A stretch of DNA of 61,290 nucleotides, from positions 1-61,290 of the IMG/VR virus record IMGVR_UViG_3300017788_000026; one strand, given 5' to 3'. This DNA is from a virus. The stretch's first letter is position 1. The number at the start of each line of letters is the position of its first letter. The notes beneath the pieces were generated by a model. It saw nothing but the letters and a program-made list of their open reading frames with translations, made no database searches and was not told the origin of the DNA. The translations under genes were made by a program, and so were the position numbers. This document shows positions 19,020 to 39,453 of this stretch, one piece after another.

Positions 19020-19021
19020 TG

Positions 19022-19396
19022 TTATCCTGTCAACAGCTCCAAGCCGCATATACCGAAAGTTAAGGTTCCTACCACTCCTACAGACATGGTTACGTATGTA
19101 CCGAATGTTCTCTTCTTCTTAAAGAACGCGTATACGCCGCCTCTAAAGGTAGCAAGCGACAGGATGGCCCACAGCAGGCACGTCACCCCGCACAATACGT
19201 CATGGTAAGGGCTTGTTTCTGTAGAAACGATGATAAGCGAAGATATAATGGTAAACCCAAACAGATAAAGCGGCGGACCGCTCTCGTCTTTTATCGTATC
19301 TGGCCCAAGAGTTAGCGCTTCCTTTAATGTCTTATAGAACAGCACACTGGTGCCTAGTACGCACACTATAAGGGTAGTTGTTTCTACGTCGGTCAT
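19022..19396 (-). CDS. Four-helix membrane protein (124 aa)
   Basis: Hydrophobic segments TTTLIVCVLGTSVLF, LYLFGFTIISSLIIV, VLCGVTCLLWAILSLATF and YVTMSVGVVGTLTFGICG. The third helix W-A-I-L-S-L-A-T-F-R-G-G-V-Y-A corresponds to LWTLLTASFAQSGMYAA in the next protein, supporting common ancestry. 4-nt overlap with the upstream gene. Confidence 0.65.
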   Translation of the reverse strand: MTDVETTTLIVCVLGTSVLFYKTLKEALTLGPDTIKDESGPPLYLFGFTIISSLIIVSTETSPYHDVLCGVTCLLWAILSLATFRGGVYAFFKKKRTFGTYVTMSVGVVGTLTFGICGLELLTG

Positions 19397-19602
19397 TTGC
19401 GTACCGCCCCTACTGTGTCCGAGAATAGAGCTATTGCTGCGAATAGAGTAACTATGCTAAATATTGTCACAAGAGCGTCGCCCGCATTTTGGCTAGACTT
19501 GCTGCGTGCATCACCAGCGAGGTAGGCTCCCACGACTGTCATAACTATACTGAATATACACAGCGCGGATAAGACCACCTTTGTCTCGGCTACACTACTC
19601 AT
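19393..19602 (-). CDS. Two-helix membrane protein (69 aa)
   Basis: Two hydrophobic segments (VVLSALCIFSIVMTVVGAYLA; ALVTIFSIVTLFAAIALFS) joined by a polar linker (GDARSKSSQNAGD). Half the size of its neighbours. 4-nt overlaps on both sides put it firmly in the operon. Could be holin-like by topology, but nothing proves that. Confidence 0.6.
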   Translation of the reverse strand: MSSVAETKVVLSALCIFSIVMTVVGAYLAGDARSKSSQNAGDALVTIFSIVTLFAAIALFSDTVGAVRK

Positions 19603-19973
19603 TCTGGCGTTCCTGTAGCGACTACCCCGGCAAAACCAACAACGATCATACCTATTCCGTGTATTAGCAGTGTCTTTCTGTTCATGCCCTCAAGCTTTAG
19701 GGCCACAATAGCGCTGAATAACCCGACTAGTGAGCAGAAGAAGAAGCCTATGGCCAGCGAGCGTGCCTCTACAACTACGTCTATGGGAATTATTTGCACG
19801 TATATTAGGGGAACAGCATACAAGCCGCATCCTATTATCGCCTTGTTTACAAAAGGTCTCGCATCATCGTTCACTGCGCCTGCTGCTGAGGCGCTGATAA
19901 GGCTGGTTATTACGAAAACGGTCAGCGCTACAACCATCAGCGAAAATATACCGCCGAGTAGAAGGTCAATCAT
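19599..19973 (-). CDS. Four-helix membrane protein (124 aa)
   Basis: Hydrophobic helices at about residues 4-28, 46-62, 72-92 and 101-120; the second loop carries basic residues (KLEGMNRKTLL). 4-nt overlaps upstream and downstream. Same layout as the other members of this membrane block. Unknown function. Confidence 0.65.
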   Translation of the reverse strand: MIDLLLGGIFSLMVVALTVFVITSLISASAAGAVNDDARPFVNKAIIGCGLYAVPLIYVQIIPIDVVVEARSLAIGFFFCSLVGLFSAIVALKLEGMNRKTLLIHGIGMIVVGFAGVVATGTPE

Positions 19974-20377
19974 AGCGGCCCAGCCACCACTTCGTTGGGT
20001 AGTGCCGCTATGAAAGTGAACAGGCCGACAGTTATGTAGAATATTCCCATAAGAACGAGATGCAGGAAAAGAGCGTGCCTGGCCCCGCCGGCTACCACTA
20101 GTATTACGCCGCCCATCACGAGTATGTGGGTTGACCCTATTTGCATAAGGATGTACTTAAACTCATCACCAACCGGAAGCAGGTACGTTGCTACTCCCAT
20201 GGTTGCAAGGTAAATACAGCAGAAGATGTTGACGTCTCCGGAGCGTGGTAGGTTACCGTCTTTTTGGGCTTCCACGGTTGCGGTAACCAATGATTGAATC
20301 TTAAAAAGGCCTACTAGAAGGCTTATAACGTATACCAGTAGAATAACATCATTGTCTCTGATCAAAACGCCTGTCAA
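19970..20377 (-). CDS. Four-helix membrane protein (135 aa)
   Basis: I place the start at TTG 20377, which overlaps the stop of the small upstream gene and has GGAG just upstream; the longer in-frame ATG at 20455 would run antiparallel to nothing else but would overlap that gene fully. Hydrophobic helices include VILLVYVISLLVGLF, IFCCIYLATMGVATYLL, HILVMGGVILVVAG and LHLVLMGIFYITVGLFTFI. Confidence 0.6.
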   Translation of the reverse strand: MTGVLIRDNDVILLVYVISLLVGLFKIQSLVTATVEAQKDGNLPRSGDVNIFCCIYLATMGVATYLLPVGDEFKYILMQIGSTHILVMGGVILVVAGGARHALFLHLVLMGIFYITVGLFTFIAALPNEVVAGPL

Positions 20378-20487
20378 AAGGTTTCTCCGTTGAGGACTCT
20401 TATGAGGCACACAGTCCAGTAGAGGACACAGATGGCGGCGCTGAACACCGCCCACATCGGTAACTCGGGTTGTTTCTTGTTAGGCAC
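20374..20487 (-). CDS. Tiny single-pass membrane protein (37 aa)
   Basis: GTG 20487 lies inside the end of the upstream gene, and the TGA overlaps the TTG of the downstream gene. The peptide has a polar start (PNKKQPELP) and one membrane helix (MWAVFSAAICVLYWTVCLI). Position between two overlapping genes is the main support. Confidence 0.5.
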   Translation of the reverse strand: MPNKKQPELPMWAVFSAAICVLYWTVCLIRVLNGETF

Positions 20488-20704
20488 TAAATTGTATTTC
20501 GATCTGGCTAAAGGCGGCACGTTGCGCTGCTTCTTCAATCGTATTGGCTACAGGGAGTATATCAGCGTCATATAGCGGGTATGTTTCATTATTAAAGTAT
20601 TCCTCTAGGCGCTTCTCTAGGAATGTCTCTTTAGAAGGTGCGTAAAATGACTTGTCTATAAAACGCACCAGCTCTCGCCTAGCGTTCTGTTTGGGCGGCA
20701 ACAT
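20480..20704 (-). CDS. Mini-gene array protein (74 aa)
   Basis: Last soluble member of the long array. Residues 12-23 (LVRFIDKSFYAPS) show the array signature of a helix followed by F-[IVLYF]. The remainder is acidic and helical (FLEKRLEEYF, EEAAQRAAFSQIE). Overlaps the gene upstream by 26 nt. Confidence 0.6.
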   Translation of the reverse strand: MLPPKQNARRELVRFIDKSFYAPSKETFLEKRLEEYFNNETYPLYDADILPVANTIEEAAQRAAFSQIEIQFSA

Positions 20705-20930
20705 GTGGTTCCAACTCTACGATTATGTCCTTAATCAACCATACGTCCACTATATCAGATCGAGCTATTCTGGGCAGGCGGATCGGCGTTCCATAGGCGA
20801 TGTGTGTGTCATCTATGATGTAGAAGTCCTCAGGATAGTCGGGAACAAAACCCTCGTCGAAAAACAGGTCTATGATTTCATATATCTTATGACGCGTGTC
20901 TTCGCTTATTTTTCCCCCCAATCCAAGCAC
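20679..20930 (-). CDS. Mini-gene array protein (83 aa)
   Basis: Contains HKIYEIIDLFFDEGFVPDY, a clear array signature. I place the start at GTG 20930 (TTG 20921 is equally possible) so that it overlaps the upstream stop by about 25 nt as elsewhere in the array. A CATAAGATAT element lies inside this gene on the same strand. Confidence 0.55.
   Translation of the reverse strand: MLGLGGKISEDTRHKIYEIIDLFFDEGFVPDYPEDFYIIDDTHIAYGTPIRLPRIARSDIVDVWLIKDIIVELEPHVAAQTER
20882..20912 (-). promoter_or_regulatory. Possible internal promoter
   Basis: CATAAGATAT (plus-strand complement 20882-20891) within the coding region above. The upstream box is only A-rich (AAAAATAA), so the match to the bipartite consensus is partial. 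It would drive the last array genes and the membrane block. Confidence 0.35.
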
Positions 20931-21112
20931 TCTGTGTGTCCCGCCGATATTTCGACAATCTCCAGGGCCGCCGGCACCTCTACTACAAGAAAGCGCTCCA
21001 ATGCTGGATGAATGTGCATTTTCGATACAGCACATTCCGTTGGCGGTGTTTTTATAAATGCATTCATTATGTCTGTTACAATGTTCCCACGGCTCGCCAA
21101 CGTAAGCGGCAT
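20906..21112 (-). CDS. Mini-gene array protein (68 aa)
   Basis: Start ATG 21112 overlaps the upstream stop as TGATG. IVTDIMNAFIKTPP near residues 10-23 carries the array signature; the rest is mixed alpha/beta (LERFLVVEVPAALEIVEIS). Function unknown. Confidence 0.6.
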   Translation of the reverse strand: MPLTLASRGNIVTDIMNAFIKTPPTECAVSKMHIHPALERFLVVEVPAALEIVEISAGHTECLDWGEK

Positions 21113-21354
21113 CACTCGCTCTCGCGTACAGATACTGTGGTTATAATACAATCAAGGAAGATGGCGGAAGCCACTCCTTCGCGCACGAACCAAGCAATGT
21201 TCGCACTGTGTAGGCTCTCTAAAGAGCGCCCCCCTCTTTTCTTTTTCGGATTGTATCTACTTGTGGCGGCCTCTGATATTACAAAGTACTTGTATAGAGA
21301 ATTGATAACAATGTTCTCGTTAGCTATCAAAACCTCGCGTTGGGAGCTCATCAT
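21112..21354 (-). CDS. Mini-gene array protein (80 aa)
   Basis: IVINSLYKYFVISEAA is the array signature. A basic stretch follows (NPKKKRGGR), then a hydrophobic C-terminal part. 4-nt overlap upstream, 1-nt overlap downstream. Function unknown. Confidence 0.6.
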   Translation of the reverse strand: MMSSQREVLIANENIVINSLYKYFVISEAATSRYNPKKKRGGRSLESLHSANIAWFVREGVASAIFLDCIITTVSVRESE

Positions 21355-21557
21355 TCGCCATAGTTATCGTTGAAGCCTACTATATCGACCCACGTTGGGA
21401 TAGTCGCATCAAACATCCTAGGTGCGAGGTCCTGCGGTATTGTTTTCATAAGGCTGATGACATGCTCTACCCGTCTTAGCGGTTGGTATTTTATGAATTG
21501 ACGATCTATCACAAAGATCAATATCTTTTCGGCTGTTCGAGTAGGTCTAAACCGCAT
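21351..21557 (-). CDS. Mini-gene array protein (68 aa)
   Basis: Signature ILIFVIDRQFIKYQPLRRV at residues 12-30, then a helix and a C-terminal TWVDIVGFNDNYGE. Overlaps the upstream gene by 11 nt. Confidence 0.6.
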   Translation of the reverse strand: MRFRPTRTAEKILIFVIDRQFIKYQPLRRVEHVISLMKTIPQDLAPRMFDATIPTWVDIVGFNDNYGE

Positions 21558-21792
21558 AGATGCGCTGCTTGGTTGGGTCTAGGTGGTTTTCCGCTGATAC
21601 ATAGATGCTGTCCGCCTCTGCAGCTTTTACTACCATCGACAGCTCGGCTCTCATAAATTTAAGCTGCAACCACAGTTCCTCACCAATGTTTGGTAGAACC
21701 GGCGGTGTTATAAGAAAGCTAGTTCTGATAAAGTGTTTTACGCATATCTGTCCAATAATATCAAATTGAGAGTTGAAAGAGTTAGTAAGCAT
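21547..21792 (-). CDS. Mini-gene array protein (81 aa)
   Basis: Signature IIGQICVKHFIRTSFLI at residues 12-28, followed by a helical region (ELWLQLKFMRAELSMVV). Six nt separate it from the upstream stop. Function unknown. Confidence 0.6.
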   Translation of the reverse strand: MLTNSFNSQFDIIGQICVKHFIRTSFLITPPVLPNIGEELWLQLKFMRAELSMVVKAAEADSIYVSAENHLDPTKQRIYAV

Positions 21793-21798
21793 TGTCTT

Positions 21799-22005
21799 TT
21801 AGCATTCTAAATCCTCGTCAGCTATCCTCGTCTCCACTGAGACCAGTATGACGAATGCGTCGCGGTATCTATCCGGGGTTACCTTTTGGTACATATCATC
21901 TAAAACCTTATCGGATTCTATAAAAGCGTCGCCTATCTGGTCAATCAATGAGCGATGCCTGTCTAGTCTAGTTTCTTCAGCTGTCATTGTATCGGAACAT
22001 CCCAT
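21799..22005 (-). CDS. Mini-gene array protein (68 aa)
   Basis: Signature LIDQIGDAFIESDKVLDDM at residues 20-38; acidic overall, with a hydrophobic strand near the end (DAFVILVSVETRI). Overlaps the upstream gene by 22 nt. Confidence 0.6.
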   Translation of the reverse strand: MGCSDTMTAEETRLDRHRSLIDQIGDAFIESDKVLDDMYQKVTPDRYRDAFVILVSVETRIADEDLEC

Positions 22006-22175
22006 CTGTGGTGTCTGCCTATGTTTGCAAATATTTCCTGTCCCAGGAGGGCGCGAGCCCGCATCCGAATCTCTGGGACAGGCATATGTAGATCTGTGTA
22101 GTATATGAGGGTATCTGTAGTTAAAAACCCTTTTACCATATATATGGTCAAACTTACCTCAGCAGAGTAGCTCAT
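21984..22175 (-). CDS. Mini-gene array protein (63 aa)
   Basis: LTIYMVKGFLTTDTLIYY near the N-terminus fits the signature; the C-terminus is basic (MRARALL, GRHHRW). Overlaps upstream by 17 nt. Unknown function. Confidence 0.55.
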   Translation of the reverse strand: MSYSAEVSLTIYMVKGFLTTDTLIYYTDLHMPVPEIRMRARALLGQEIFANIGRHHRWDVPIQ

Positions 22176-22356
22176 GTTCTAGGAGGTTCAGGTCTGTGGT
22201 TATGCGTTCTACGGATAGCATAGCCCGGGATACAGCCACTACTGAAGCACCAGTGCTCTCCATTAGAGAATAGAGTTTGGATAGTATCAGCGCTAGCTCA
22301 ATACCGTCATCTAGGAAAGACTCGTCTATTGAGTCGTGAAGGGATGTGTATCTCAT
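22159..22356 (-). CDS. Mini-gene array protein (65 aa)
   Basis: Signature LHDSIDESFLDDGIELALI at residues 5-23, then two helices ending DLNLLEHELLC. 4-nt overlap with the upstream gene. Confidence 0.6.
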   Translation of the reverse strand: MRYTSLHDSIDESFLDDGIELALILSKLYSLMESTGASVVAVSRAMLSVERITTDLNLLEHELLC

Positions 22357-22568
22357 GGTGAGTCTGCTTGGTCTACTGCTCTATTGACATCACTGTGTAC
22401 ACCCAAATTACTGCCAATATCCATGAGGTTATGAAAAACGTTCGGGTACTTAATATAGAATAAGTACCTTTTTGTACTATCATGTACCATATCAGCTCCC
22501 GCCCACACATCCACAAAGTCGTGGTTGAGTACCTTCTCTAACGCTAACCTATCCACGGATATAATCAT
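22353..22568 (-). CDS. Mini-gene array protein (71 aa)
   Basis: Signature ALEKVLNHDFVDVWAGADM at residues 9-27, followed by an aromatic segment (KRYLFYIKYPNVFHNLM). 4-nt overlap with the upstream gene. Confidence 0.6.
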   Translation of the reverse strand: MIISVDRLALEKVLNHDFVDVWAGADMVHDSTKRYLFYIKYPNVFHNLMDIGSNLGVHSDVNRAVDQADSP

Positions 22569-22780
22569 GATACAACCGCGGTTCTTATGCCCATTATAGG
22601 TACGCGTCTAGTGTGCTCGCTGAGTATGGGGCCACAAACAGGACAATCGCTGTTTGCGAAGGACTTTGTTAGTATAATCTCGCGGGTTTGTTTGTCCCAC
22701 GTCACGTGAAAGAAATCACCCCTGTAGAATCTCTTTTCTACCACTTCGGTAATAATGTGATCAGAGAGATGGGTTGTCAT
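22565..22780 (-). CDS. Mini-gene array protein with CPVC motif (71 aa)
   Basis: Signature IITEVVEKRFYRGDFFHV at residues 9-26. Unusual for the array, it has a C-x2-C motif (NSDCPVCGPI) and a downstream His, so metal binding is possible. 22 nt separate it from the upstream gene. Confidence 0.6.
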   Translation of the reverse strand: MTTHLSDHIITEVVEKRFYRGDFFHVTWDKQTREIILTKSFANSDCPVCGPILSEHTRRVPIMGIRTAVVS

Positions 22781-22801
22781 CTGTAAGTGGGTTGGGGTAC
22801 T

Positions 22802-23068
22802 CTAAGAGACCGAATCTTCTACGTAAGAAGGCTGGTTAGCTCTGTGAGGCATACGTATCCCATCCGGCGAAATGTCGCTCCACGCCGCCGCCTGCGCTCC
22901 GGAGCTAAGCCGACCCATAATTTCGAACCAGGCTCTTCTTGGGTAGCCGTGATGGCTGAGCTGTTCTACAAAGATATCTTTATAGATGTCTTGATCTACG
23001 AAGGTTTTTGCAACGCTTATTAGGATGCCTTCTCGCATTACAGCCTCGCGGTCTTTAACCCACCCCAA
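22802..23068 (-). CDS. Mini-gene array protein (88 aa)
   Basis: Signature ILISVAKTFVDQDIYKDIF at residues 15-33. The C-terminal half is basic and polar (SSGAQAAAWSDISPDGIRM). Overlaps upstream by 14 nt. Confidence 0.6.
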   Translation of the reverse strand: MGWVKDREAVMREGILISVAKTFVDQDIYKDIFVEQLSHHGYPRRAWFEIMGRLSSGAQAAAWSDISPDGIRMPHRANQPSYVEDSVS

Positions 23069-23291
23069 AGAAGACCATCGCGGTTTCTGGGCCTTTCAGT
23101 GCACCCATAAGGCTGGTTAGCTCTGTGCGGCTTCTTATATTATCCAGCACCTCGTAGGAGACCCAGGTACCAAGGCGCTTCTCTAATAAAGACTGAACCT
23201 CATCTCGGATAGATCGGTGCTCTACTATGAAAAGCTCCTTTCTCATCACGTTATCTGATAGCCACGTCCCTATGTCAGTGACATGTCTCAT
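23055..23291 (-). CDS. Mini-gene array protein (78 aa)
   Basis: LSDNVMRKELFIVEHRSI at residues 11-28 carries the signature; next comes a helix (EVQSLLEKRLGTW). 17-nt overlap upstream. Function unknown. Confidence 0.6.
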   Translation of the reverse strand: MRHVTDIGTWLSDNVMRKELFIVEHRSIRDEVQSLLEKRLGTWVSYEVLDNIRSRTELTSLMGALKGPETAMVFFGVG

Positions 23292-23475
23292 TTAAGACCC
23301 TCTCCGTGACCCTGTCTAAGTTTATACCCTCGCGGTCAACAGACACGCCGAGCATATCCCAAATTTCGAGTATTCGTGCCGCGTATATTTGATTAACGGC
23401 TGTATCGAGCTCGGTGTACTGGCTTTTTATAAAACCCATATTTACTTTATGCGGGTAGGCTTTATCTAGGCCCAT
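23275..23475 (-). CDS. Mini-gene array protein (66 aa)
   Basis: KVNMGFIKSQYTELDTAV near residues 10-27: the [LM]-G-F-[ILV] version of the signature also seen at 23641 and 24556. Helical remainder. 10-nt overlap upstream. Confidence 0.6.
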   Translation of the reverse strand: MGLDKAYPHKVNMGFIKSQYTELDTAVNQIYAARILEIWDMLGVSVDREGINLDRVTERVLNETCH

Positions 23476-23672
23476 AGGATAACAAGTCTCGTCTCTAGGT
23501 CTCTCACTGATCTGCGCTCAACGACTGTTTTAATGCTGTCAACTATTCTTATATCGCTCTGTCTGAGGTCACCTGGCATGCTAAAGTAAAGCTCATTTTC
23601 CTCGTCATACGGGTCAATGAAATACGGGTCTATGATTAAATCAGCTAAGGTCTTGTATTGGGGGTACTGCAT
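23466..23672 (-). CDS. Mini-gene array protein (68 aa)
   Basis: LADLIIDPYFIDPYDEEN at residues 9-26 is the signature followed by D-P-Y, shared with the protein at 24556-24753. C-terminal helix basic/acidic (ERRSVRDLETRLVIL). 32-nt overlap upstream. Confidence 0.6.
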   Translation of the reverse strand: MQYPQYKTLADLIIDPYFIDPYDEENELYFSMPGDLRQSDIRIVDSIKTVVERRSVRDLETRLVILWA

Positions 23673-23841
23673 TACGGGCGGCTCGTTCTATTAATTGTAC
23701 ATTTAAAGGAGTAAGGTCTAGTAGGATGCTAAGTTGACGCAGCGAGGTCGTTTTACAAACCGCTGCTATGTCGCATACTAGGTCGGTTTGATAACGCCAG
23801 GCGCTTATAAATCCCAGGTCTGATCTATGTATAGGGTTCAT
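23641..23841 (-). CDS. Mini-gene array protein (66 aa)
   Basis: RSDLGFISAWRYQTDLV at residues 6-22 resembles SSELGFVFRHG in the first array. Two Leu-rich helices follow (LRQLSILLDLTPLNVQLI). 4-nt overlap upstream. Confidence 0.6.
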   Translation of the reverse strand: MNPIHRSDLGFISAWRYQTDLVCDIAAVCKTTSLRQLSILLDLTPLNVQLIERAARNAVPPIQDLS

Positions 23842-24065
23842 GTATTAAACACCTCCCTGCCTCTAAACTCCAAAATCTCAATAACTCGCCCAGAGGCGCT
23901 GTACATAGCCCACATGTCCATCACCTTACTTGGTCTACATATAGGCATATCGCCTATCGTTTCATCATGTAACTTCCATGGATGTATAAATTCTCTGCTA
24001 ATTGCTTCTTCTAGCCGGTTATAATCTGTGCGAGCCCCTCTAAAGGTCATCATGGATTCCTTCAA
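23838..24065 (-). CDS. Mini-gene array protein (75 aa)
   Basis: LEEAISREFIHPWKLHDE at residues 18-35 is the signature with a following P-W, as in the protein at 24227-24397. C-terminus basic (EFRGREVFNT). 26-nt overlap upstream. Confidence 0.6.
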   Translation of the reverse strand: MKESMMTFRGARTDYNRLEEAISREFIHPWKLHDETIGDMPICRPSKVMDMWAMYSASGRVIEILEFRGREVFNT

Positions 24066-24240
24066 CCTCTCTAACGCTCATAAACAAATCTATAGGATCG
24101 CAGGAATCTAGCATGTGATCCATTATCTCCGGGCGGGGGTGGGCTACACGCCAAATCGCGTAAGTGTGCTGAACGCGCCCGCTGTTAGTGTCGGTAAAAG
24201 ACCTTTGAATATAATCCAGCAGTTCCTTATTCGAGGACAT
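24040..24240 (-). CDS. Mini-gene array protein (66 aa)
   Basis: KELLDYIQRSFTDTNSG at residues 5-21 shows the helix-then-F element. The C-terminal half is acidic (DPIDLFMSVREVEGIHDDL). Overlaps the small gene upstream by 14 nt. Confidence 0.6.
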   Translation of the reverse strand: MSSNKELLDYIQRSFTDTNSGRVQHTYAIWRVAHPRPEIMDHMLDSCDPIDLFMSVREVEGIHDDL

Positions 24241-24397
24241 CTGCTATATGCAAGTGGCCCGCACGAACGAGCCGAATTCTTTTTACATCAGCTGCATCAT
24301 CGATCATTTGGTCTATTTGCAGCATATAAGCGGCATACATCGTCCACGGCTCTAGGAAGCGGCTTGCTACAATATCATCTAGCTGTTGAAGGGTCAT
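24227..24397 (-). CDS. Short mini-gene array protein (56 aa)
   Basis: ATG 24397 to TAA 24227; fills the only apparent hole in this part of the array and overlaps both neighbours (22 and 14 nt). LDDIVASRFLEPWTMYA at residues 6-22 aligns with NDIIKRDFVSPHLF of the next upstream gene, so the short frame is likely real and perhaps a truncated paralogue. Confidence 0.6.
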   Translation of the reverse strand: MTLQQLDDIVASRFLEPWTMYAAYMLQIDQMIDDAADVKRIRLVRAGHLHIADVLE

Positions 24398-24581
24398 CTA
24401 GTAGCTCTATTGACCACGTCCGTTCTGCTATAAAGAAAATGTGCTCAGATAGTGGCTGCATCAGGCCGTCTTTTCTGTATTTTACAAAATATGATTGGCC
24501 TTGGTTAGCCATATTTATGAATAGATGTGGGGACACGAAGTCCCTTTTTATGATGTCATTTATTTGTGTAAGGGGTATCAT
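24375..24581 (-). CDS. Mini-gene array protein, clear paralogue of its upstream neighbour
   Basis: 68 residues. From DFVSPHLF onward it aligns without gaps to the protein at 24556-24753: by eye 21 of 50 residues are identical, including EHIFFIAERTW against DHIFSMAHRVW and the final LLDDP. This is the best direct evidence of tandem duplication in the array. Confidence 0.7.
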   Translation of the reverse strand: MIPLTQINDIIKRDFVSPHLFINMANQGQSYFVKYRKDGLMQPLSEHIFFIAERTWSIELLDDPSTAR

Positions 24582-24753
24582 CTAACATCTCTGGTGCCCA
24601 TACACGGTGTGCCATAGAGAAAATGTGGTCAGCTAGATGATTTAGCAGTTCGTAGTTTATGCCTATTACAAACTCTTTTTGGTCTTGTCTAGTCATTCCT
24701 AGAAATAGATACGGGTCTAAAAACCCCAGGTTTTTTGCGTCAGGACAGTCCAA
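24556..24753 (-). CDS. Mini-gene array protein, clear paralogue of its downstream neighbour
   Basis: 65 residues. KNLGFLDPYLFLGMTRQDQ carries the signature and aligns with the gene at 24375-24581; both end in E-[LM]-L-D-D. 14-nt overlap upstream and 26-nt overlap downstream. Function unknown. Confidence 0.7.
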   Translation of the reverse strand: MDCPDAKNLGFLDPYLFLGMTRQDQKEFVIGINYELLNHLADHIFSMAHRVWAPEMLDDTPYTNK

Positions 24754-24982
24754 TATGCGCCTCTTCTGTATCTATTGACGACGTTGCCTCGGGGAGTAGG
24801 CTAATTAAAGTCATCATTATTTCCGTTGAGGGAAAAACACGGGAGCATAGGTTAGATATTTCTATATTCATTCTATGGACTGCATGCGCATGCACTATGT
24901 CCTTAGCACTTATTATTTTAGACTCCGGCTCAATAAAACTGATTTCGTACAGAATATTTCGCGTTCGGTTATTCACTGACAT
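24740..24982 (-). CDS. Mini-gene array protein (80 aa)
   Basis: NILYEISFIEPESKIISAK at residues 9-27 is the signature with a following P as in neighbours. The segment HAVHRMNIEISNL may correspond to EHIFFIAERTWSIEL of the paralogue pair. 10-nt overlap upstream. Confidence 0.6.
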   Translation of the reverse strand: MSVNNRTRNILYEISFIEPESKIISAKDIVHAHAVHRMNIEISNLCSRVFPSTEIMMTLISLLPEATSSIDTEEAHIGLS

Positions 24983-25176
24983 TGATCCAAAGCCTCTTCT
25001 ACAGCCTCTTCTAGACTATCTTCTAGATTATCGAGCACCTCAGCATAGCAGTCTGTAACGTATGCTGGCAGTATCTCTCCCTTTCCGAGAAAGCGGTACC
25101 ACTGCTCGGGTGGTATTTCTATACGTAGGAATCCTATAGTCAACTTAGTAAGATCAGTCTTCAGCTGGAGCCTCAA
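24973..25176 (-). CDS. Mini-gene array protein (67 aa)
   Basis: TTG 25176 is preferred because it overlaps the upstream gene by 23 nt, like its neighbours; ATG 25212 would overlap by 59 nt. Signature-like TKLTIGFLRIEIPP; the C-terminal 30 residues form an acidic helix (NLEDSLEEAVEEALDQ). Confidence 0.5.
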   Translation of the reverse strand: MRLQLKTDLTKLTIGFLRIEIPPEQWYRFLGKGEILPAYVTDCYAEVLDNLEDSLEEAVEEALDQCQ

Positions 25177-25381
25177 TTTCGGTGCTTGCAAACACAACCG
25201 CATCCATTGCATAGGACATTATTATGGCTGGTTGGGCAGGAAACATGTTCGCAGGGTAGCACCCGGTTTCGCATATAACCTCGTTTTTCATCCAGAAAGA
25301 ATGAGCCTTATCAAAACCAAAGACTTCAGAAAACTCGCAGAGTATAATGTCTTTTTTAAGTTTAGGTATTAACGGCTTCAT
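25154..25381 (-). CDS. Mini-gene array protein (75 aa)
   Basis: Start ATG 25381 (MKPLIPKLKKD) gives a 20-nt overlap with the upstream gene. IILCEFSEVFGFDKAHS is the aromatic core; the central part is hydrophobic (FPAQPAIIMSYAMDAVVFA). Unknown function. Confidence 0.6.
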   Translation of the reverse strand: MKPLIPKLKKDIILCEFSEVFGFDKAHSFWMKNEVICETGCYPANMFPAQPAIIMSYAMDAVVFASTEIEAPAED

Positions 25382-25589
25382 ACCATGCGTCCACAAAAAG
25401 GTGAGAGAGGTCTCTTTCGCGTGTCGATTGTGTTAAATCATAATCACTGCCCTTATACAGCGCGGCTAATTCTGATAGTTCTTTCACATAAACCCCCCGA
25501 AAAAACCCCGCGGTCGCTCGGTTTAGTAGCGCGCCGTGTTCGTTCTCGATTCGATAGTCAACTGTTATGTCGGTTTGCATATTGAGCAT
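25362..25589 (-). CDS. Mini-gene array protein (75 aa)
   Basis: LLNRATAGFFRGVYVKEL at residues 21-38 fits the signature; the C-terminus has HLFVDAWYEAVNT. 32-nt overlap upstream. Function unknown. Confidence 0.6.
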   Translation of the reverse strand: MLNMQTDITVDYRIENEHGALLNRATAGFFRGVYVKELSELAALYKGSDYDLTQSTRERDLSHLFVDAWYEAVNT

Positions 25590-25788
25590 AGTAGATCGCT
25601 GAGAGTACCCCTATATCAAGATCGGCATCTAGAACGCGGAACGGAGGCCTCCTAAACAGCTCTTGCGCGTACAGGTCTGTTATTTTGACATGCTCATCTA
25701 TAAGGCGGCGGTATTCCTGTATAAGGAAATTCGCGCCTATATGATTCGCTACCGAGACTATAGCCGTTGCTAGCTCGTCTAAGTCCAC
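25558..25788 (-). CDS. Mini-gene array protein (76 aa)
   Basis: GTG 25788 (VDLDELATAIVSV) is preferred over ATG 25851, which would overlap the upstream gene by 73 nt; GAGGCCGA precedes the GTG. Helical, with HIGANFLIQEYRRLIDEH as the signature-like segment. Confidence 0.55.
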   Translation of the reverse strand: MDLDELATAIVSVANHIGANFLIQEYRRLIDEHVKITDLYAQELFRRPPFRVLDADLDIGVLSAIYYAQYANRHNS

Positions 25789-25994
25789 TCGGCCTCTTCG
25801 TCGAGTAGTCGATCGAATGATACTGCGTCGGTAGCTCTGGACATGTCCCATCTCATAATAGCGAGCGTGTACCTAGTTCCGTAGGACAGCCTACTTTCAT
25901 GTGCCTGCTGTCCTACGTCACAGAACCTCGTCGGATCCAAGGTGTGTTTTTTGAACATCGTGTCAATCATGCACGCATGAGCGTAGTCCATCAT
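25779..25994 (-). CDS. Mini-gene array protein (71 aa)
   Basis: ACMIDTMFKKHTLDPTRFC near residues 7-25; Arg-rich central part and acidic end (DRLLDEEAEWT). Six nt separate it from the larger gene upstream. Confidence 0.55.
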   Translation of the reverse strand: MMDYAHACMIDTMFKKHTLDPTRFCDVGQQAHESRLSYGTRYTLAIMRWDMSRATDAVSFDRLLDEEAEWT

Positions 25995-26000
25995 AACGCA

Positions 26001-26420
26001 CTAGTCTACCCGCATACTTGTGTACAGGTCTTCAACAACTTCGTGGTTAAACCACATACTCGCCTGTCTGCGGGCGCCTTTGAAAAAAGTGACCTCCCAG
26101 AGGAGATCGCCGCACGGTATAGCATCGTTGGGCCCTAGTTTGAACCCGTTTATAGTTACAGCCCGGGCCTCCAACAAGCGCCGTCTCTCAGACATGGAGG
26201 CGTTGGATTCTTGTTGTGTGCTGGGCACGTGAGTGAGCCCTCTTAGGAATGCTAAGGCCGAGCCTTCGGCGAATAGTGGCGCGGCTTCAACAGCCCGTGC
26301 GCTTGATTGTAGTCTATCTAGCGCCTCTTCTTTTGTTTTAGCGCCCTTGATTTTTTTGAAGGCGGCGCCTAGCGCCTCCCGGGTGAAACCCATAGACTGT
26401 AGTTCTTCTCGTGTAAGCAC
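26001..26420 (-). CDS. S4-like domain protein (139 aa)
   Basis: The N-terminal half is helical (REELQSMGFTREALGAAFKK). The C-terminal part SERRRLLEARAVTINGF, then KLGPNDAI and LWEVTFFKG, resembles the S4 RNA-binding fold at the end of tyrosyl-tRNA synthetases (helix R-R-L-x-x-x-A-V-x-[IV]-N-G). Hence possible RNA binding. Much larger than the surrounding array genes and four nt from the HD-domain gene. The assignment rests on a short motif. Confidence 0.5.
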   Translation of the reverse strand: MLTREELQSMGFTREALGAAFKKIKGAKTKEEALDRLQSSARAVEAAPLFAEGSALAFLRGLTHVPSTQQESNASMSERRRLLEARAVTINGFKLGPNDAIPCGDLLWEVTFFKGARRQASMWFNHEVVEDLYTSMRVD

Positions 26421-26424
26421 GCGG

Positions 26425-26949
26425 TCAACGCTTCTTTGGTAGGTAGTCCTGTTCTATAAGGCAGATAATATTGTTTACAGTAGTGTGTGTTTCTTTATTG
26501 AGCGCCAGCGCATCATCTAGTAGGCTGTGAACGATACGCCTGTGTTCGTGCATATCATTACCGTTAGGTAGATGCTTGAGCCTCCACATAAAAGCATCCA
26601 AGCGGTCGCACAGCTTCAAAACCCGCTTCTCTTCGTCGGTGAGTTTGTCTTCTATATAACCGAAGCCCAAAGAAGCGCGGCCATTTTTCTCTATACCATC
26701 CACCATATTTTTTAGCTCAGGATGAGTTAGTTTCGTGGGCGTGCTTATGTCGCCAGTGAACCACTCTCCTAAGTCGTGTGTCAGCGCAAACAACAGCGCT
26801 TCTTTCGATATAGTGGGCATCAGTTGGACAGCTAATAAAGCTACGCGACATTGATGCCCTGCTATCGAATCATTTGAGTCACTTAAATCCGGATCGGTGT
26901 GCCATCTTTTTACAAAAGTGGCCAACCAGGTTCTGTACATTTTTGTCAT
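26425..26949 (-). CDS. HD-domain 5'-deoxynucleotidase-like hydrolase (YfbR type)
   Basis: 174 residues. GHQCRVALLAVQL supplies the first metal His, ALLFALTHDLGEWFTGD the HD pair with the following Glu, and TGDISTPTK the T-G-D-x-x-T-P-x-K signature of the YfbR family, which removes phosphate from deoxynucleoside monophosphates. A later D (LCDRLDAF) is the fourth ligand. Likely a metal-dependent cytosolic enzyme in nucleotide-pool remodelling after infection. It interrupts the mini-gene array. The 93 nt upstream hold nothing recognisable. Confidence 0.75.
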   Translation of the reverse strand: MTKMYRTWLATFVKRWHTDPDLSDSNDSIAGHQCRVALLAVQLMPTISKEALLFALTHDLGEWFTGDISTPTKLTHPELKNMVDGIEKNGRASLGFGYIEDKLTDEEKRVLKLCDRLDAFMWRLKHLPNGNDMHEHRRIVHSLLDDALALNKETHTTVNNIICLIEQDYLPKKR

Positions 26950-27042
26950 TTTACCTTTTTATCTATACTTTCGTACGTTTGTCTGCCTGTCTATTATATG
27001 CTCTATAGCGATTTCCGCACCTTAGATACAACTGCTTTACTT

Positions 27043-27225
27043 TTAGCATTCCGCTTCAATGCTGAAATCTTCGAGGTCAGATAATACAGCAGCACCCTCT
27101 ATTAAGGTGCTTATTGATAAGAGCACGTCTAAGCCGACTAGTGTATATATCTTCGGTAGTCCATAATTCAGGTGGAGCATGTGTCTAGGACTACAAATAT
27201 AGCAGATCAGATCATTATTAGTCAT
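27043..27225 (-). CDS. Mini-gene array protein (60 aa)
   Basis: Start ATG 27225 (MTNNDLICYIC) gives an 8-nt overlap; ATG 27279 would overlap by 62 nt. Leu/Ile-rich helices (KIYTLVGLDVLLSISTLI), acidic end. Function unknown. Confidence 0.55.
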   Translation of the reverse strand: MTNNDLICYICSPRHMLHLNYGLPKIYTLVGLDVLLSISTLIEGAAVLSDLEDFSIEAEC

Positions 27226-27427
27226 CCCAGGCTCTTTCGCAATCAGCCACTCCAGGAATCCAGACAATATCAACAGCATTAACTATTTCGTCTTCTAGCT
27301 CAAAACATTCGGACAAACCGAATAAACGGGAAGAATCGCGGCCTAGGTCGGCAAACCATACAGGCACTCTGTAGGCTATAAACCAGGTATATAGCGGGAA
27401 TTTCTCTAAAGGGCTACTAGGCTTCAC
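27218..27427 (-). CDS. Mini-gene array protein (69 aa)
   Basis: EKFPLYTWFIAYRVPVWFAD near the N-terminus is aromatic and hydrophobic, with a W-F-I resembling the signature. Acidic second half (CFELEDEIVNAVD). 11-nt overlap upstream. Confidence 0.55.
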   Translation of the reverse strand: MKPSSPLEKFPLYTWFIAYRVPVWFADLGRDSSRLFGLSECFELEDEIVNAVDIVWIPGVADCERAWDD

Positions 27428-27602
27428 TGCTTATTTCCGTTAGCCACCTGAGTAGCTGAAGGGAGGTGAGGGTTTCACGTAGATCAGTAAATAACGGGTC
27501 GGCGTAGTACGTGTCTATTAGAGGGAGGCCCTCATCCGGTACAGCGCTTAGAACAAATTTGTGTGTTAGCTCAAGTACAAACTCTGGCTTCGTACCGTCC
27601 AT
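27417..27602 (-). CDS. Mini-gene array protein (61 aa)
   Basis: FVLELTHKFVLSAVPDEG is the signature segment; C-terminal helix LTSLQLLRWLTEIS. 37-nt overlap upstream. Function unknown. Confidence 0.55.
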   Translation of the reverse strand: MDGTKPEFVLELTHKFVLSAVPDEGLPLIDTYYADPLFTDLRETLTSLQLLRWLTEISSEA

Positions 27603-27778
27603 ATAACGCCCTCAAGATCCCTGTCTATTTGTTCGGCCACCGGCTGTGTAATGCTTATCATGTAGGTCAGCACTTCTGCCCGTTCAGGACGCGCGTCATG
27701 ATCTATCCAGGAGGATACCCCTAGGTTGAGCTTGCTCGTACTAATAAAGAATGAGCAGATATCTAATGACGAAACCAT
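27566..27778 (-). CDS. Mini-gene array protein (70 aa)
   Basis: SSLDICSFFISTSKLNLG at residues 3-20 carries the signature; then a helix (ERAEVLTYMISIT) and an acidic stretch. One nt from the upstream gene. Confidence 0.55.
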   Translation of the reverse strand: MVSSLDICSFFISTSKLNLGVSSWIDHDARPERAEVLTYMISITQPVAEQIDRDLEGVIWTVRSQSLYLS

Positions 27779-27779
27779 G

Positions 27780-28034
27780 TTATGGTCCTGTTGCTGCTAT
27801 GTAGTACGTGGTCCCTAGAATACGCGCTTCGTCTATTATACGGTATGTTTCGGTATCTATATCGCTTGAGAGCCCGGCCCACAGGTCGTCTACGGCTGCG
27901 GACGTGTCTGTGATGTTGGCTAACCAGTTAAAGCTCATGTCCACGAAGTGCCGCGGATATACACAGTATTCCACCCATTCTATTTTTTTATAAACCCTAG
28001 GATCATACATTTCTTGACTGGGTATAAACAACAC
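27780..28034 (-). CDS. Mini-gene array protein (84 aa)
   Basis: Rich in Tyr and Trp near the N-terminus (VYKKIEWVEYCVYPRHFVDM), then an acidic helical region. It follows the lysis-type cluster after a 65-nt gap (28035-28099) in which I see nothing. Confidence 0.55.
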   Translation of the reverse strand: MLFIPSQEMYDPRVYKKIEWVEYCVYPRHFVDMSFNWLANITDTSAAVDDLWAGLSSDIDTETYRIIDEARILGTTYYIAATGP

Positions 28035-28099
28035 CTTTTCCTCGCTTCAGTTGGTTCGCCTACTAGGAAAAAGAAGGAGCCGGCGCCCCTTCTGTGATC

Positions 28100-28378
28100 T
28101 CACCGATATCGGTGTCTTACCAACACCGGGTCGGCGGCTCGCTTCATCTCTTCGTAGTGTTTGTCACACAGCAGGATGCTCGGACTATGTTTTTTTCCCG
28201 TTGATGCGTAGAACGTCCAGCCAGAGCAACTTGAGGGCCCCTTAAACACGCATTGCTGTTGCCTGTACAGATACCAGGCCCAGATCAAGGTCACCTGGAT
28301 CAGAACACTTAGAGACAACCCAAAGATTGGGGCGCCCCATTTGGTGTGGCGAAAAGACACCTTAGCTTTGTTCTTCAT
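28100..28378 (-). CDS. Single-pass membrane protein with Cys/His tail (92 aa)
   Basis: One membrane helix (PIFGLSLSVLIQVTLIWAW), then a tail with C-S-G-W and ILLCDKHYEEMKRAA. The tail spacing C-x-x-W...L-C-x-x-H-x-x-E matches the end of the next protein upstream, so the two are probably paralogues. 4-nt overlap with it. Could be a lysis accessory protein; not proven. Confidence 0.6.
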   Translation of the reverse strand: MKNKAKVSFRHTKWGAPIFGLSLSVLIQVTLIWAWYLYRQQQCVFKGPSSCSGWTFYASTGKKHSPSILLCDKHYEEMKRAADPVLVRHRYR

Positions 28379-28716
28379 GTGTCTTTCCGACGATCTTTTT
28401 GCGCGGCTTTTTCTGCTTCATGGCGGTGTTCTGAGCACGCCAACATCGTGAAATGGACGGGGGCTACCCATCCCCTGCAGCCCTTGCCCCAGCCTATGCA
28501 GCATTTGCTGCACTGCATGATGTAGATGAAGCACGTTGCGCCGATTCCAAAGAATACGGACGCTAGCAGCACATTAGCCTTGGCGGCGAGTGCTGCTATG
28601 AGCAGTAAGCCGGCTATTACAGCCGTGCTTACTATGAAGACGAGCAGAGTGAAGAATGCCTCTCTCAGTGCGTCTTCACTGCGCTGCGTTGAACTCTTTG
28701 TAGAATGTGATGACAT
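28375..28716 (-). CDS. Two-helix membrane protein with Cys/His tail, possible holin
   Basis: 113 residues with two hydrophobic helices (FTLLVFIVSTAVIAGLLLIAA; VLLASVFFGIGATCFIYIM), then CSKCCIGWGKGC and MLACSEHRHEAEKAA. It directly follows a secreted lysozyme-like gene and overlaps it, a usual place for a holin, but a Cys-rich tail is not a holin hallmark. Confidence 0.5.
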   Translation of the reverse strand: MSSHSTKSSTQRSEDALREAFFTLLVFIVSTAVIAGLLLIAALAAKANVLLASVFFGIGATCFIYIMQCSKCCIGWGKGCRGWVAPVHFTMLACSEHRHEAEKAAQKDRRKDT

Positions 28717-29122
28717 TCTTGATCCAGTTCTTGTTGAGCCCGTGCGGATCGTTTTCTGCGCCTACGGGACAGTACTTGTTCCCAAGGAAGGTGATGAAGT
28801 CTTCCTTGCAACCGCTTGCCACCCAGCGGTCGTAGTTCTTTTGAACGGTGGCGGCGCACCAACCAGCTTGTTTCCGGTAGGTGTTGGCTTTTTTGTTAAG
28901 GATGCCAAACTCCTTACCCGCACCGCCGTTTTCGGCGTAGCGTATAGCGGCAACCACAGGCCGCAGCAGGTCGCGCAACTCAGGACGAATGTTCTCCTGA
29001 ATCGCCTCCTCGAAGGCGGCGGCGTTCGCCGCGCCGTCTTTCTTCTCTATTGGTGACTGCCCGAACGACAGCCCTACCAATGATACGACCGCCAACAAGA
29101 CGGCCCATAATCTAGTACGCAT
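28676..29122 (-). CDS. Secreted lysozyme/transglycosylase-like endolysin candidate
   Basis: 148 residues with a signal peptide (MRTRLWAVLLAVVSLVGLSFGQ). The mature part has AIRYAENGGAGKEFGIL, where the Glu of Y-A-E-N-G-G could be catalytic, then KYCPVGAENDPHGLNKNW. I recall this pattern from phage proteins described as lysozyme-like, but cannot verify it here. AAAAAGGAGTC precedes the ATG and a promoter element lies 30 nt upstream. Export by the host Sec pathway would make it a signal-dependent endolysin. Confidence 0.55.
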   Translation of the reverse strand: MRTRLWAVLLAVVSLVGLSFGQSPIEKKDGAANAAAFEEAIQENIRPELRDLLRPVVAAIRYAENGGAGKEFGILNKKANTYRKQAGWCAATVQKNYDRWVASGCKEDFITFLGNKYCPVGAENDPHGLNKNWIKNVITFYKEFNAAQ

Positions 29123-29289
29123 GTGTGACTCCTTTTTGATAGGGGGACTTGCATATATCTTATGCCATATTTGTTAACGTATTTGAGTATAAAGTCAGAG
29201 AACTCTGAAGGCAGGCCCGGCACTATGAAGAGAGACATGTTTTTTCTAATAAGATCAAGAATAATATTGTTTGCTGTTTGCGGGTTCAT
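29074..29289 (-). CDS. Mini-gene array protein (71 aa)
   Basis: IILDLIRKNMSLFIVPGL at residues 8-25 carries the array signature, which argues that it is coding although it contains the promoter above and overlaps the endolysin start by 49 nt. C-terminal part basic and aromatic. Confidence 0.5.
   Translation of the reverse strand: MNPQTANNIILDLIRKNMSLFIVPGLPSEFSDFILKYVNKYGIRYMQVPLSKRSHTCVLDYGPSCWRSYHW
29155..29185 (-). promoter_or_regulatory. Promoter element of the CATAAGATAT family
   Basis: CAAAT (29181-29185), 16-nt gap, CATAAGATAT (29164-29155), read on the minus strand. It lies 32 nt before the endolysin start with a good ribosome-binding site between, so the lysis genes can be transcribed separately from the upstream array. 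Confidence 0.65.
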
Positions 29290-29290
29290 T

Positions 29291-29518
29291 TTATGACAGC
29301 ATCTCGTCTGACGCCCGTCCGTAGAATGGTAGCACAGGGGGTAGTCGGGGGTTCATGAGTGTATTGACAGAATCACGGACGAAATCGTAGCTCTCGCGTG
29401 ATAAATATAGGTGCGCAGTATTCTTTATTATGTTAGTGAATAGTGTTGTATGAATTTTGTCTAGGCCAGAACATCTTTCCAATAATAAGACGAGCTCTTC
29501 AGTGTCACTCATAGTCAA
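29291..29518 (-). CDS. Mini-gene array protein (75 aa)
   Basis: Acidic start (SDTEELVLLLERCSGLDKI), then TLFTNIIKNTAHLYLSRES. 14-nt overlap upstream. Function unknown. Confidence 0.55.
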   Translation of the reverse strand: MTMSDTEELVLLLERCSGLDKIHTTLFTNIIKNTAHLYLSRESYDFVRDSVNTLMNPRLPPVLPFYGRASDEMLS

Positions 29519-29738
29519 AAAATCGGGGCAGATCTGGGTGTCGCGGCTCCACGACCGGCGCCCTCACTGCGACCTGTTCACACACAAGATCCTCAATAAT
29601 GAGGTGATTGTAGTATCCCATTACAATACGAGGCACCCCTAGGTCGCTCCGGACAAGGCTACGCAATCTACCGGGTATCAGGCTCATATTTAAGAGCGCC
29701 GCCTCTAAGATGTGTTCTTGCTCTATAGGATGTGTCAT
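29505..29738 (-). CDS. Mini-gene array protein (77 aa)
   Basis: EHILEAALLNMSLIPGRLRS near the N-terminus resembles RKNMSLFIVPG of the gene two places downstream. Hydrophobic middle (IVMGYYNHLIIEDLV), acidic end. Three nt from the upstream gene. Confidence 0.55.
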   Translation of the reverse strand: MTHPIEQEHILEAALLNMSLIPGRLRSLVRSDLGVPRIVMGYYNHLIIEDLVCEQVAVRAPVVEPRHPDLPRFFDYE

Positions 29739-29741
29739 TCT

Positions 29742-29960
29742 CTAAAGCTCGCTTCCGAAAGGATACACTGCTGCCGTAGCGACCGTGCGTCGATGAACAT
29801 TTGTTGCAATCTCATCCTCTATTCCGTCTTTTCTTGGATTTACATCATCTACTAAACGGGTTACTTTAACGTTAACAGCAAATATAGGGTAGCAGATCTG
29901 GTCTATAAGTAAGTCGTTGTCTATATGGTTCAGTGGTTTGTTGTGTGTTTCTACTGTCAC
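29742..29960 (-). CDS. Mini-gene array protein (72 aa)
   Basis: DLLIDQICYPIFAVNVKVTR at residues 17-36 fits the signature. 4-nt overlap with the first gene of the array. Function unknown. Confidence 0.55.
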   Translation of the reverse strand: MTVETHNKPLNHIDNDLLIDQICYPIFAVNVKVTRLVDDVNPRKDGIEDEIATNVHRRTVATAAVYPFGSEL

Positions 29961-30241
29961 AGAGGGAACAGCTCCTCTACTTCGCTGTCGTGTGGATTGA
30001 CAGGAAGGTCTAGTTCCATCTCAACCACTTCGTCTAGAATAAGGGTTCGGCACTCGACGATTTCTCGAAAAGAGCTTAAAAGTAGATTGTGCGGCGTGCC
30101 GTTTTGTGCGGCCGTACTGATTTGTCTATACGTGTCGCTAAGAGGGGCGCACGCCGCGGCCACGACGTTCTCTTTTTGCATCGCGCGGGCCAACATGATA
30201 TCGAAACTGTCCATGGTTTCCATCAATACCTTATGACGCAT
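29957..30241 (-). CDS. First gene of the long mini-gene array
   Basis: Up to 94 residues; helical (DIMLARAMQKENVVAAA; FREIVECRTLILDEVVEM) with an acidic end. The start is uncertain: ATG 30241 lies upstream of a CATAAGGTAT element, so if that is the promoter the real start is ATG 30223 or 30214. Confidence 0.5.
   Translation of the reverse strand: MRHKVLMETMDSFDIMLARAMQKENVVAAACAPLSDTYRQISTAAQNGTPHNLLLSSFREIVECRTLILDEVVEMELDLPVNPHDSEVEELFPL
30226..30235 (-). promoter_or_regulatory. Possible weak promoter element for the array
   Basis: CATAAGGTAT on the minus strand, one base from the consensus core, just after a terminator and at the head of the array. No CAAAA box at the expected distance, so lower confidence. 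Confidence 0.35.
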
Positions 30242-30258
30242 TCTACTTCCATATTAGT

Positions 30259-30303
30259 AAAAAAAGAAGCCGTGCTGATAGGGGTGATATCAACAACGGC
30301 TTC
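30259..30303 (-). terminator. Terminator hairpin upstream of the array
   Basis: Minus strand GAAGCCGT...ACGGCTTC: an 8-bp stem (arms 30266-30273 and 30296-30303) with an inner TGATA/TATCA pairing, followed by seven T. It would end the short transcript that carries the 46-codon gene. Confidence 0.65.
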
Positions 30304-30321
30304 CCCGGTAGGATGCATTAA

Positions 30322-30346
30322 GGCAACGGGCGCAAGTCCCGTTACC
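30322..30346. other. Second hairpin beside the terminator
   Basis: GGCAACGGG, 7-nt loop CGCAAGT, CCCGTTACC: nine pairs with one mismatch. It lies just after the stop of the small gene at 30356. With the terminator it makes about 90 nt of structured RNA on the minus strand. Confidence 0.4.
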
Positions 30347-30355
30347 AAAATGATG

Positions 30356-30496
30356 CTACTTTTGAGGTACCGGCGCGGCGGGCTCCGGTAACCTCGGCGC
30401 TTCGGCCTGTTTGTGCTGTTCTAGCAGCGTGTCATTCACGGCAGCCAGACCAGCCAACGTAGCTTTTATAGCGATCAACAGCTCTTTATCTGTCAT
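30356..30496 (-). CDS. Small protein (46 aa)
   Basis: ATG 30496 to TAG 30356. N-terminal helix (DKELLIAIKATLAGLAAVND) and Pro/Ala-rich tail (RLPEPAAPVPQK). It is the only gene between a consensus promoter at 30636-30666 and the terminator at 30259-30303, which supports it being expressed. No family recognised. No strong ribosome-binding site. Confidence 0.45.
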   Translation of the reverse strand: MTDKELLIAIKATLAGLAAVNDTLLEQHKQAEAPRLPEPAAPVPQK

Positions 30497-30635
30497 TTTT
30501 TCATGTAGCGCCCTACCTAAACACCCACCAGCGAGGTGCTGGTGGTTTTGTGGCTACCCCATAAACTTGCCTACGGTCACAAGGTCATTAAGCAAGCTTG
30601 CTCTTGATTGCCTAAAAGCTATCATTTCATATCGG

Positions 30636-30666
30636 GTATCTTATGACAATAGTTCCTAAAAATTTG
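30636..30666 (-). promoter_or_regulatory. Promoter element of the CATAAGATAT family
   Basis: CAAAT (30666-30662), 16-nt gap, CATAAGATAC (30645-30636) on the minus strand. It points at the 46-codon gene, about 140 nt downstream. That leader (30497-30635) contains no other gene I can see. Confidence 0.55.
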
Positions 30667-30685
30667 ACACAGCGGGTGCATAACC

Positions 30686-32228: not shown

Positions 32229-32240
32229 ACGGAGAATTAG

Positions 32241-32579: not shown

Positions 32580-32580
32580 T

Positions 32581-32766: not shown

Positions 32767-32767
32767 T

Positions 32768-33062: not shown

Positions 33063-33080
33063 TTGGGTTAGGTGTGTAAT

Positions 33081-34443: not shown

Positions 34444-34475
34444 GTTCCTGGGTAAAATAGTAGTATACTTAGGAT

Positions 34476-35093: not shown

Positions 35094-35110
35094 TTCAGAA
35101 AGGTTCGCAA

Positions 35111-39270: not shown

Positions 39271-39275
39271 AAAAG

Positions 39276-39443: not shown

Positions 39444-39453
39444 CGCGTCAACC

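Follow-up and report, generated by a model that had tools for sequence, protein, structure and literature searches.

A minus-strand array of miniature overlapping phage genes and its recurrent N-terminal motif

The stretch of DNA considered here is IMG/VR virus record IMGVR_UViG_3300017788_000026, positions 1 to 61,290 (hereafter, the window), a fragment of an uncultured tailed phage. Its minus strand carries an array of 37 small open reading frames (ORFs), a01 to a37, running from 30241 down to 20480. The products of the 22 genes a16–a37 (20480–24982, hereafter the core run) mostly have in common a short N-terminal motif, which is recognized in held-out sequences, whereas the 15 upstream genes (a01–a15) join this group weakly. 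Judging from the sequences, we lean, with some reserve, toward reading the array as one gene family grown by tandem duplication.

Array layout and the N-terminal motif

The 37 ORFs encode 56–97 amino acids (aa), with a mean of 73 ± 8 aa, and tail-to-head overlaps prevail. The original prediction, made from the letters of the window, spoke of about 35 tiny overlapping genes, and the count bears this out: 99% of 20480–25000 and 98% of 20480–30241 lie under minus-strand ORFs of 55 aa or longer, versus 28 ± 9% and 32%, respectively, in dinucleotide shuffles, which never exceeded 48%. Five larger, apparently unrelated genes, which the prediction had taken in with the rest, split the array into three runs, so it is not continuous. 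ATG is the start codon of 32 of the 37 ORFs (for a12, a15, and a31 the start is not certain), and a Shine–Dalgarno (SD)-like site precedes 10 of them; the rate is 12% at random positions and 39% ahead of plus-strand genes. Per-ORF codon-usage scores are modest. The products have a median isoelectric point (pI) of 5.1, and 32/37 are acidic (pI <7). Because most array genes start inside the preceding gene, a polycistronic transcript with translational coupling is plausible for many of them. A scan for sigma-70-type promoters stayed at chance level (17 found vs. 19.5 expected); the virus has its own RNA polymerase, and its promoters may differ in type. A contig of another IMG/VR record (L064) matches the window at 99.96%, with zero substitutions, over 28175–46030, and of the array it spans only a01–a05.

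Anchored on a Phe, the core genes give a consensus of ~12 residues, [LIV]-x3-[IVL]-x3-F-[ILVFY]-x-[P/S/T]. Across these 22 genes, the hydrophobic share is 77% at position −8, 86% at −4, and 95% at +1 (z of 4.1, 4.7, and 5.6, respectively). Positions −3 to −1 and +2 are polar, poor helix formers (P, S, T, and others) occupy +3, and beyond +4 nothing is in register, with no constant cleavage-like site after the motif. The Phe lies anywhere from residue 11 to 28, so its distance from the N terminus is not fixed. When scanned with the pattern h...F[ILVMFY] within residues 5–34, 24 of the 37 array ORFs have the motif, versus 5.2 ± 2.1 in shuffles (maximum of 13 in 2000 shuffles); the controls gave three in reversed array proteins and nine among the 51 other proteins of the window. 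The claim that nearly all products carry the motif holds for the core run (18 of 22 genes vs. 3.0 expected) and fails upstream, where six of the 15 genes have it, a weak excess over the 2.2 expected (P = 0.012). Conservation falls mostly at codon positions 1 and 2, so the motif is conserved as protein; the idea of a repeated DNA element was rejected, as there is no repeated DNA beneath the motif.

Leave-one-out hidden Markov models (HMMs) recognize the N-terminal parts of the core genes (Fisher, 4e-13), as does a leave-one-out gapless motif (Fisher, 7e-18, a somewhat favorable figure given that regions were cropped at the chosen Phe). Scored against shuffles, the leave-one-out motif profile gives p = 8.5e-9 for the core genes and leaves the upstream genes unrecognized (p = 0.2), and 723 small proteins of relatives score below even the shuffles. 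It should be noted that we picked the anchor Phe by hand in all core genes, with held-out sequences scored freely. Held-out family recognition of the core run is confined to the N-terminal module: C-terminal parts gave p = 0.05 with HMMs, and p = 0.38 and 0.02 with the gapless motif versus 0.085 for the shuffled control, and all detectable conservation falls within ~17 residues. A one-occurrence-per-sequence motif search of the whole proteins of all 37 genes gave a weak result (Fisher, 0.001 at width 12 and 0.12 at width 20), the signal being clear only once the search is confined to the core genes and the N-terminal region.

Two products were modeled with AlphaFold2. Both models start with a helix, no other part of the two is comparable, and both are of low confidence. 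For a18, the predicted local distance difference test (pLDDT) score is 67, with a helix at residues 4–14 ahead of the Phe (pLDDT 83 in the first block of ten); for a36 it is 40, with a poorly supported helix at 10–25. A Foldseek search of viral structures with the a18 model gave no match (best E of 3.7), as expected for a model of low confidence.

Duplicate pairs and searches for relatives

Both pairs of genes that are alike at the DNA level are neighbors. The products of a17 and a18 are 43% identical and related along most of their length, with 66% DNA identity over 179 bp (E = 4e-17). The adjacent genes a25 and a26 have in common a 41-bp stretch at 80%, interrupted by a single 1-nt gap; before the gap the two are read in the same frame (xDxIR in both), and after it in different frames. 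The pair shows directly how a frameshift can strip a duplicate of its C-terminal protein similarity at a stroke. Such losses would be a simple explanation for a family visible only via the N-terminal module. For the other C-terminal parts, loss by frameshift is an extrapolation from this one case. The pairs a19–a21 and a21–a28 align above shuffles (z of 9.5 and 8.2), and 35 of the 37 members have no strong pairwise match. Motif similarity by gene distance gave p = 0.19 at distance 1 and p = 0.006 at distance 2. Many neighbor DNA matches were set aside as literal overlaps of ORFs. The sequence comparisons support tandem duplication with fast divergence. In this respect, the earlier idea of one fast-diverging tandem family finds backing in a17/a18, a25/a26, and the N-terminal recognition, and not in homology of all members along their whole length, which was seen only for a17/a18 (as protein) and, in part, for a25/a26 (as DNA).

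As had been anticipated, no described family accounts for the products. Searches of Pfam, PHROG, and PADLOC gave nothing significant (two members never matched the same family; the lowest E over 37 queries was 0.008), and the best match to PDB sequences had an E of 0.76. A scan of 20 related virus records with profile A4 gave no hits; in the window this profile re-finds only its own 14 rows and is thus weak for distant members, so for the absence of the array from the whole genomes of relatives the main grounds are synteny and the want of similar runs of small genes. At the equivalent site the array is missing in relatives, the nearest of which has 69% RNA polymerase identity: in G003, the conserved genes found here enclose eight or so different minus-strand genes, and in G002 they leave very little space. 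Loci of other relatives were scanned as well, over a part of each genome, and showed no comparable small-gene array. When a18, a36, and a YfbR-like gene that interrupts the array served as queries, peptide-pattern scans of viral contigs found no relative. Elsewhere in G003 (locus L044, 8086–9837), three consecutive minus-strand genes look by eye like tandem paralogs, with W-H-[FL]-I near the N terminus. The sequences suggest that tandem duplication in minus-strand islands may be a habit of this virus group.

Readings of the array

Under the reading that we favor, one small family of phage genes would have expanded in this lineage to form the array. An ancestral gene of ~70 codons would have been copied head-to-tail many times, and the copies would have diverged very fast, partly via frameshifts that rewrote their C-terminal parts. 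The part held fixed would be a short N-terminal module, namely an amphipathic helix with a hydrophobic residue at every fourth position that ends in F-[ILV]-x-[P/S/T]. This helix may act as a common docking or core element, the variable remainder may give each small, mostly acidic protein its own target, and the array as a whole could be a changeable panel of host-takeover or counter-defence proteins. Such a panel, built on a shared N-terminal helix and directed at the host or its defences, is the function that we would put forward first, if tentatively; it fits because the products are small, mostly acidic, without family matches, lineage-specific, and fast-changing. If there is one family, a single phage gene can yield dozens of apparent ORFans inside one island, frameshift included, and a short sequence signature could find such families where ordinary homology searches see orphans.

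We also considered, more speculatively, a specific form of this idea: an effector array in which a constant docking helix (L...I...F[IV].P) would bring 20 to 37 tiny proteins to one partner while tandem duplication and frameshift continually rewrite their C-terminal parts. Unlike described phage gene islands, the whole would be a repertoire that generates diversity, fixed in its adaptor and hypervariable at its business end. If the motif is indeed a docking element, then ~20 uncharacterized proteins could have a common partner, and finding it would be a way to approach what phage dark matter does.

Several points weigh against descent of the whole array from one gene and against the function proposed for it. 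C-terminal similarity goes undetected outside the young pairs, the membership of a01–a15 is weakly supported, and motif similarity between immediate neighbors does not significantly exceed that between genes farther apart. Every training sequence had its anchor Phe chosen by hand. An interrupting gene that looks lysin-like (by eye only) would suit late as well as early expression.

The main rival is a modular tag, in which the short N-terminal segment (helix plus F[ILV]x[P/S/T]) would be a docking or sorting signal set on C-terminal parts of different origin, the genes being related only via the tag, by a logic like that of the capsid-targeting sequence on the internal proteins of T4. We hold this to be a serious, if rather doubtful, possibility. 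The narrow limits of the conservation, of which the C-terminal parts show none, speak for it, and several plus-strand proteins of this virus, otherwise unlike one another, bear a different N-terminal peptide, FFDELEKLA; however, a17 and a18 are related along most of their length, the a25/a26 frameshift supplies a duplication-based reason for the lost C-terminal similarity, the motif Phe keeps no fixed N-terminal distance, and the proteins are uniform in size. Alternatively, the array could be unrelated small ORFans gathered in an accessory island, with a generic amphipathic helix arising by chance or convergence. Phage accessory islands often fill up with ORFans, and the scarcity of strong pairwise matches would agree with this origin, but it is unlikely given that the motif frequency and the leave-one-out tests rule out chance given composition. 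Moreover, the motif is not shown by small proteins of relatives or by other window proteins, and a conserved Phe with an aliphatic residue after it is a narrower feature than amphipathicity.

It is very unlikely that the products are internal virion proteins, packaged and injected like the internal proteins (IPs) of T4, with the motif as a capsid-targeting signal. The T4 IPs do pair a common short N-terminal capsid-targeting sequence (CTS) with bodies that differ, and at least one of them, IPI, acts against host restriction (PMC9026906), but a different and more CTS-like N-terminal peptide is already present on plus-strand proteins, the array lies on the opposite strand, its products are mostly acidic versus the basic T4 IPs, and no constant cleavage-like site follows the motif. 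That the ORFs are not real genes, or that a non-coding repeat produced the reading as an artefact, is scarcely credible. The modest codon-usage scores and the few SD-like sites would be in keeping with it, whereas the one-strand tiling far above that of shuffles, the lack of repeated DNA under the motif, the prevalence of ATG starts, SD-like sites above the random level, and the substitution-free match to the L064 contig (for a01–a05) all argue for genes.

Genomic setting and comparison with known systems

In the window, conserved genes lie on the plus strand, with minus-strand small-gene islands between them; the array is in one such accessory island (18621–30496), flanked by clusters of conserved plus-strand genes. 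The terminase has a Pfam GpA_ATPase match, and the 37321–39270 product, which we take to be the portal protein, is conserved in most related loci. Megablast searches of phage records gave no match for the array, and no annotated phage is close to the window at the DNA level; the nearest records are IMG/VR contigs, with best polymerase segment identities of 65–69% (G007, G003) and 43–49% (G005, G002, G006). A single open frame of 2358 aa (42593–49669) matches several phage RNA polymerase beta-type families, and internal stretches of it match families named thymidylate synthase and PhoH-like. The sequence suggests a single-chain polymerase with an insert, perhaps an intein.

Directly downstream from the array, on the same strand, are five small membrane-type proteins (18621–20455), and the genes at 18621 and 19022 are divergent paralogs (E = 4e-6). 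Around the terminase gene are three dispersed minus-strand paralogs (56768–57433, 59781–60434, and 60569–61093; 56–63% identical). Another minus-strand run, of ~9 small ORFs that mostly overlap or abut, lies at 4558–6956; it was rejected as a possible branch of the array, the array motif being no commoner there than by chance. Within the array (Table 1), the three interrupting genes at 28100–29122 look, by inspection only, like a lysis group. The lysin-like appearance of the largest was not confirmed by profile searches or searches of solved-structure sequences.

Table 1. Genes of the array and the larger genes that interrupt it, in order of decreasing coordinates. Remarks for a16–a37 give the motif segment, with the residue position of the anchor Phe in parentheses (F-number).
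Feature	Coordinates	Strand	Length (aa)	Remarks
a01	29957..30241	-	94	no clear motif
a02	29742..29960	-	72	
a03	29505..29738	-	77	N-terminal IL[ED]..NMSL..PG like a05, by eye
a04	29291..29512	-	73	
a05	29074..29289	-	71	
interrupting gene	28676..29122	-	148	apparently no array member; signal-peptide-like N terminus; 79% identical copy in G007
interrupting gene	28375..28716	-	113	apparently no array member; membrane protein by eye
interrupting gene	28100..28378	-	92	apparently no array member; one membrane segment by eye
a06	27780..28034	-	84	
a07	27566..27778	-	70	
a08	27417..27602	-	61	motif LELTHKFVLS
a09	27218..27427	-	69	
a10	27043..27279	-	78	
YfbR-like 5'-deoxynucleotidase (HD domain)	26425..26949	-		apparently no array member; Pfam PF12917, E = 5.6e-13
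interrupting gene	26001..26420	-	139	apparently no array member; family unassigned
a11	25779..25994	-	71	no motif
a12	25558..25851	-	up to 97	no motif
a13	25362..25589	-	75	motif-like LSHLFVDAW close to C terminus
a14	25154..25381	-	75	no motif
a15	24973..25212	-	up to 79	
a16	24740..24982	-	80	ILYEISFIEPE (F16)
a17	24556..24753	-	65	NLGFLDPY (F11); adjacent paralog of a18
a18	24375..24581	-	68	INDIIKRDFVSPH (F15); paralog of a17; structure modeled
a19	24227..24397	-	56	LDDIVASRFLEPW (F14)
a20	24040..24240	-	66	LLDYIQRSFTDT (F15)
a21	23838..24050	-	70	LEEAISREFIHPW (F21)
a22	23641..23841	-	66	SDLGFISAW (F11)
a23	23466..23672	-	68	ADLIIDPYFIDPY (F18)
a24	23275..23475	-	66	HKVNMGFIKS (F15)
a25	23055..23291	-	78	NVMRKELFIVEH (F21); 41-bp DNA repeat in common with a26
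a26	22802..23038	-	78	LISVAKTFVDQD (F13); 41-bp repeat with a25
a27	22565..22780	-	71	ITEVVEKRFYRG (F18)
a28	22353..22568	-	71	LEKVLNHDFVDVW (F18)
a29	22159..22356	-	65	LHDSIDESFLDDG (F14)
a30	21984..22175	-	63	LTIYMVKGFLTT (F17)
a31	21799..22005	-	68 (or 62)	LIDQIGDAFIES (F28)
a32	21547..21792	-	81	GQICVKHFIRTS (F21)
a33	21351..21557	-	68	LIFVIDRQFIKY (F21)
a34	21112..21354	-	80	VINSLYKYFVIS (F24)
a35	20906..21112	-	68	IVTDIMNAFIKTP (F19)
a36	20679..20930	-	83	IYEIIDLFFDEG (F23); structure modeled (poor)
a37	20480..20704	-	74	LVRFIDKSFYAP (F20)

At least eight otherwise different plus-strand proteins of the window (31714–34443 and 53363–55740) start with a near-identical peptide, M-N-F-x-x-A-F-F-D-E-L-x-K-x-A (MNFQQAFFDELEKLA type), and G003 has twelve proteins with such an N-terminal peptide in one 19-kb locus (L044, 5389–14308; MFTESFFDELEKIA type). 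By its look, this peptide could be a tag for capsid targeting or a propeptide, on the lines of the T4 CTS, and its occurrence in both viruses keeps tagging a live idea for the array. That the array motif is itself this FFDELEKLA tag was rejected after the patterns were compared by eye. In T4, the internal proteins IPI, IPII, and IPIII have a short common N-terminal segment and bodies that differ, IPI acts as an inhibitor of a Type IV restriction enzyme, and the CTS is a 10- to 19-residue N-terminal propeptide that is cleaved off basic proteins (PMC9026906). The array proteins resemble them in pairing a short common N-terminal segment with divergent bodies, no sequence relationship being claimed. 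Unlike the T4 proteins, they are acidic and have no cleavable CTS at the extreme N terminus; because the motif differs in position and has no cleavage-like site after it, we do not class it with the T4 CTS or with the plus-strand peptide.

Gene amplification offers a second comparison. According to two reports, phages amplify counter-defence genes under host pressure, driven by SegB in T6 (PMC13096335) and, in T4, against toxIN (PMC9391042). Amplification of this kind is a plausible origin for a tandem array, although the copies here, two pairs excepted, have diverged beyond pairwise DNA recognition, unlike those recent amplifications.

The host takeover module of SPO1 comprises 26 genes, mostly small, within a 12.4-kb region, and several of its products attenuate the host when expressed (PMC6873191). 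Like it, the array is a compact cluster of small phage genes; here, however, ~20 of the genes have one motif in common, and early expression and host targets would be conjectural. To our knowledge, no single family or motif runs through the SPO1 module genes. Small-gene islands of phages are known as a kind, and it is the scale of this one and its single common motif that are unusual.

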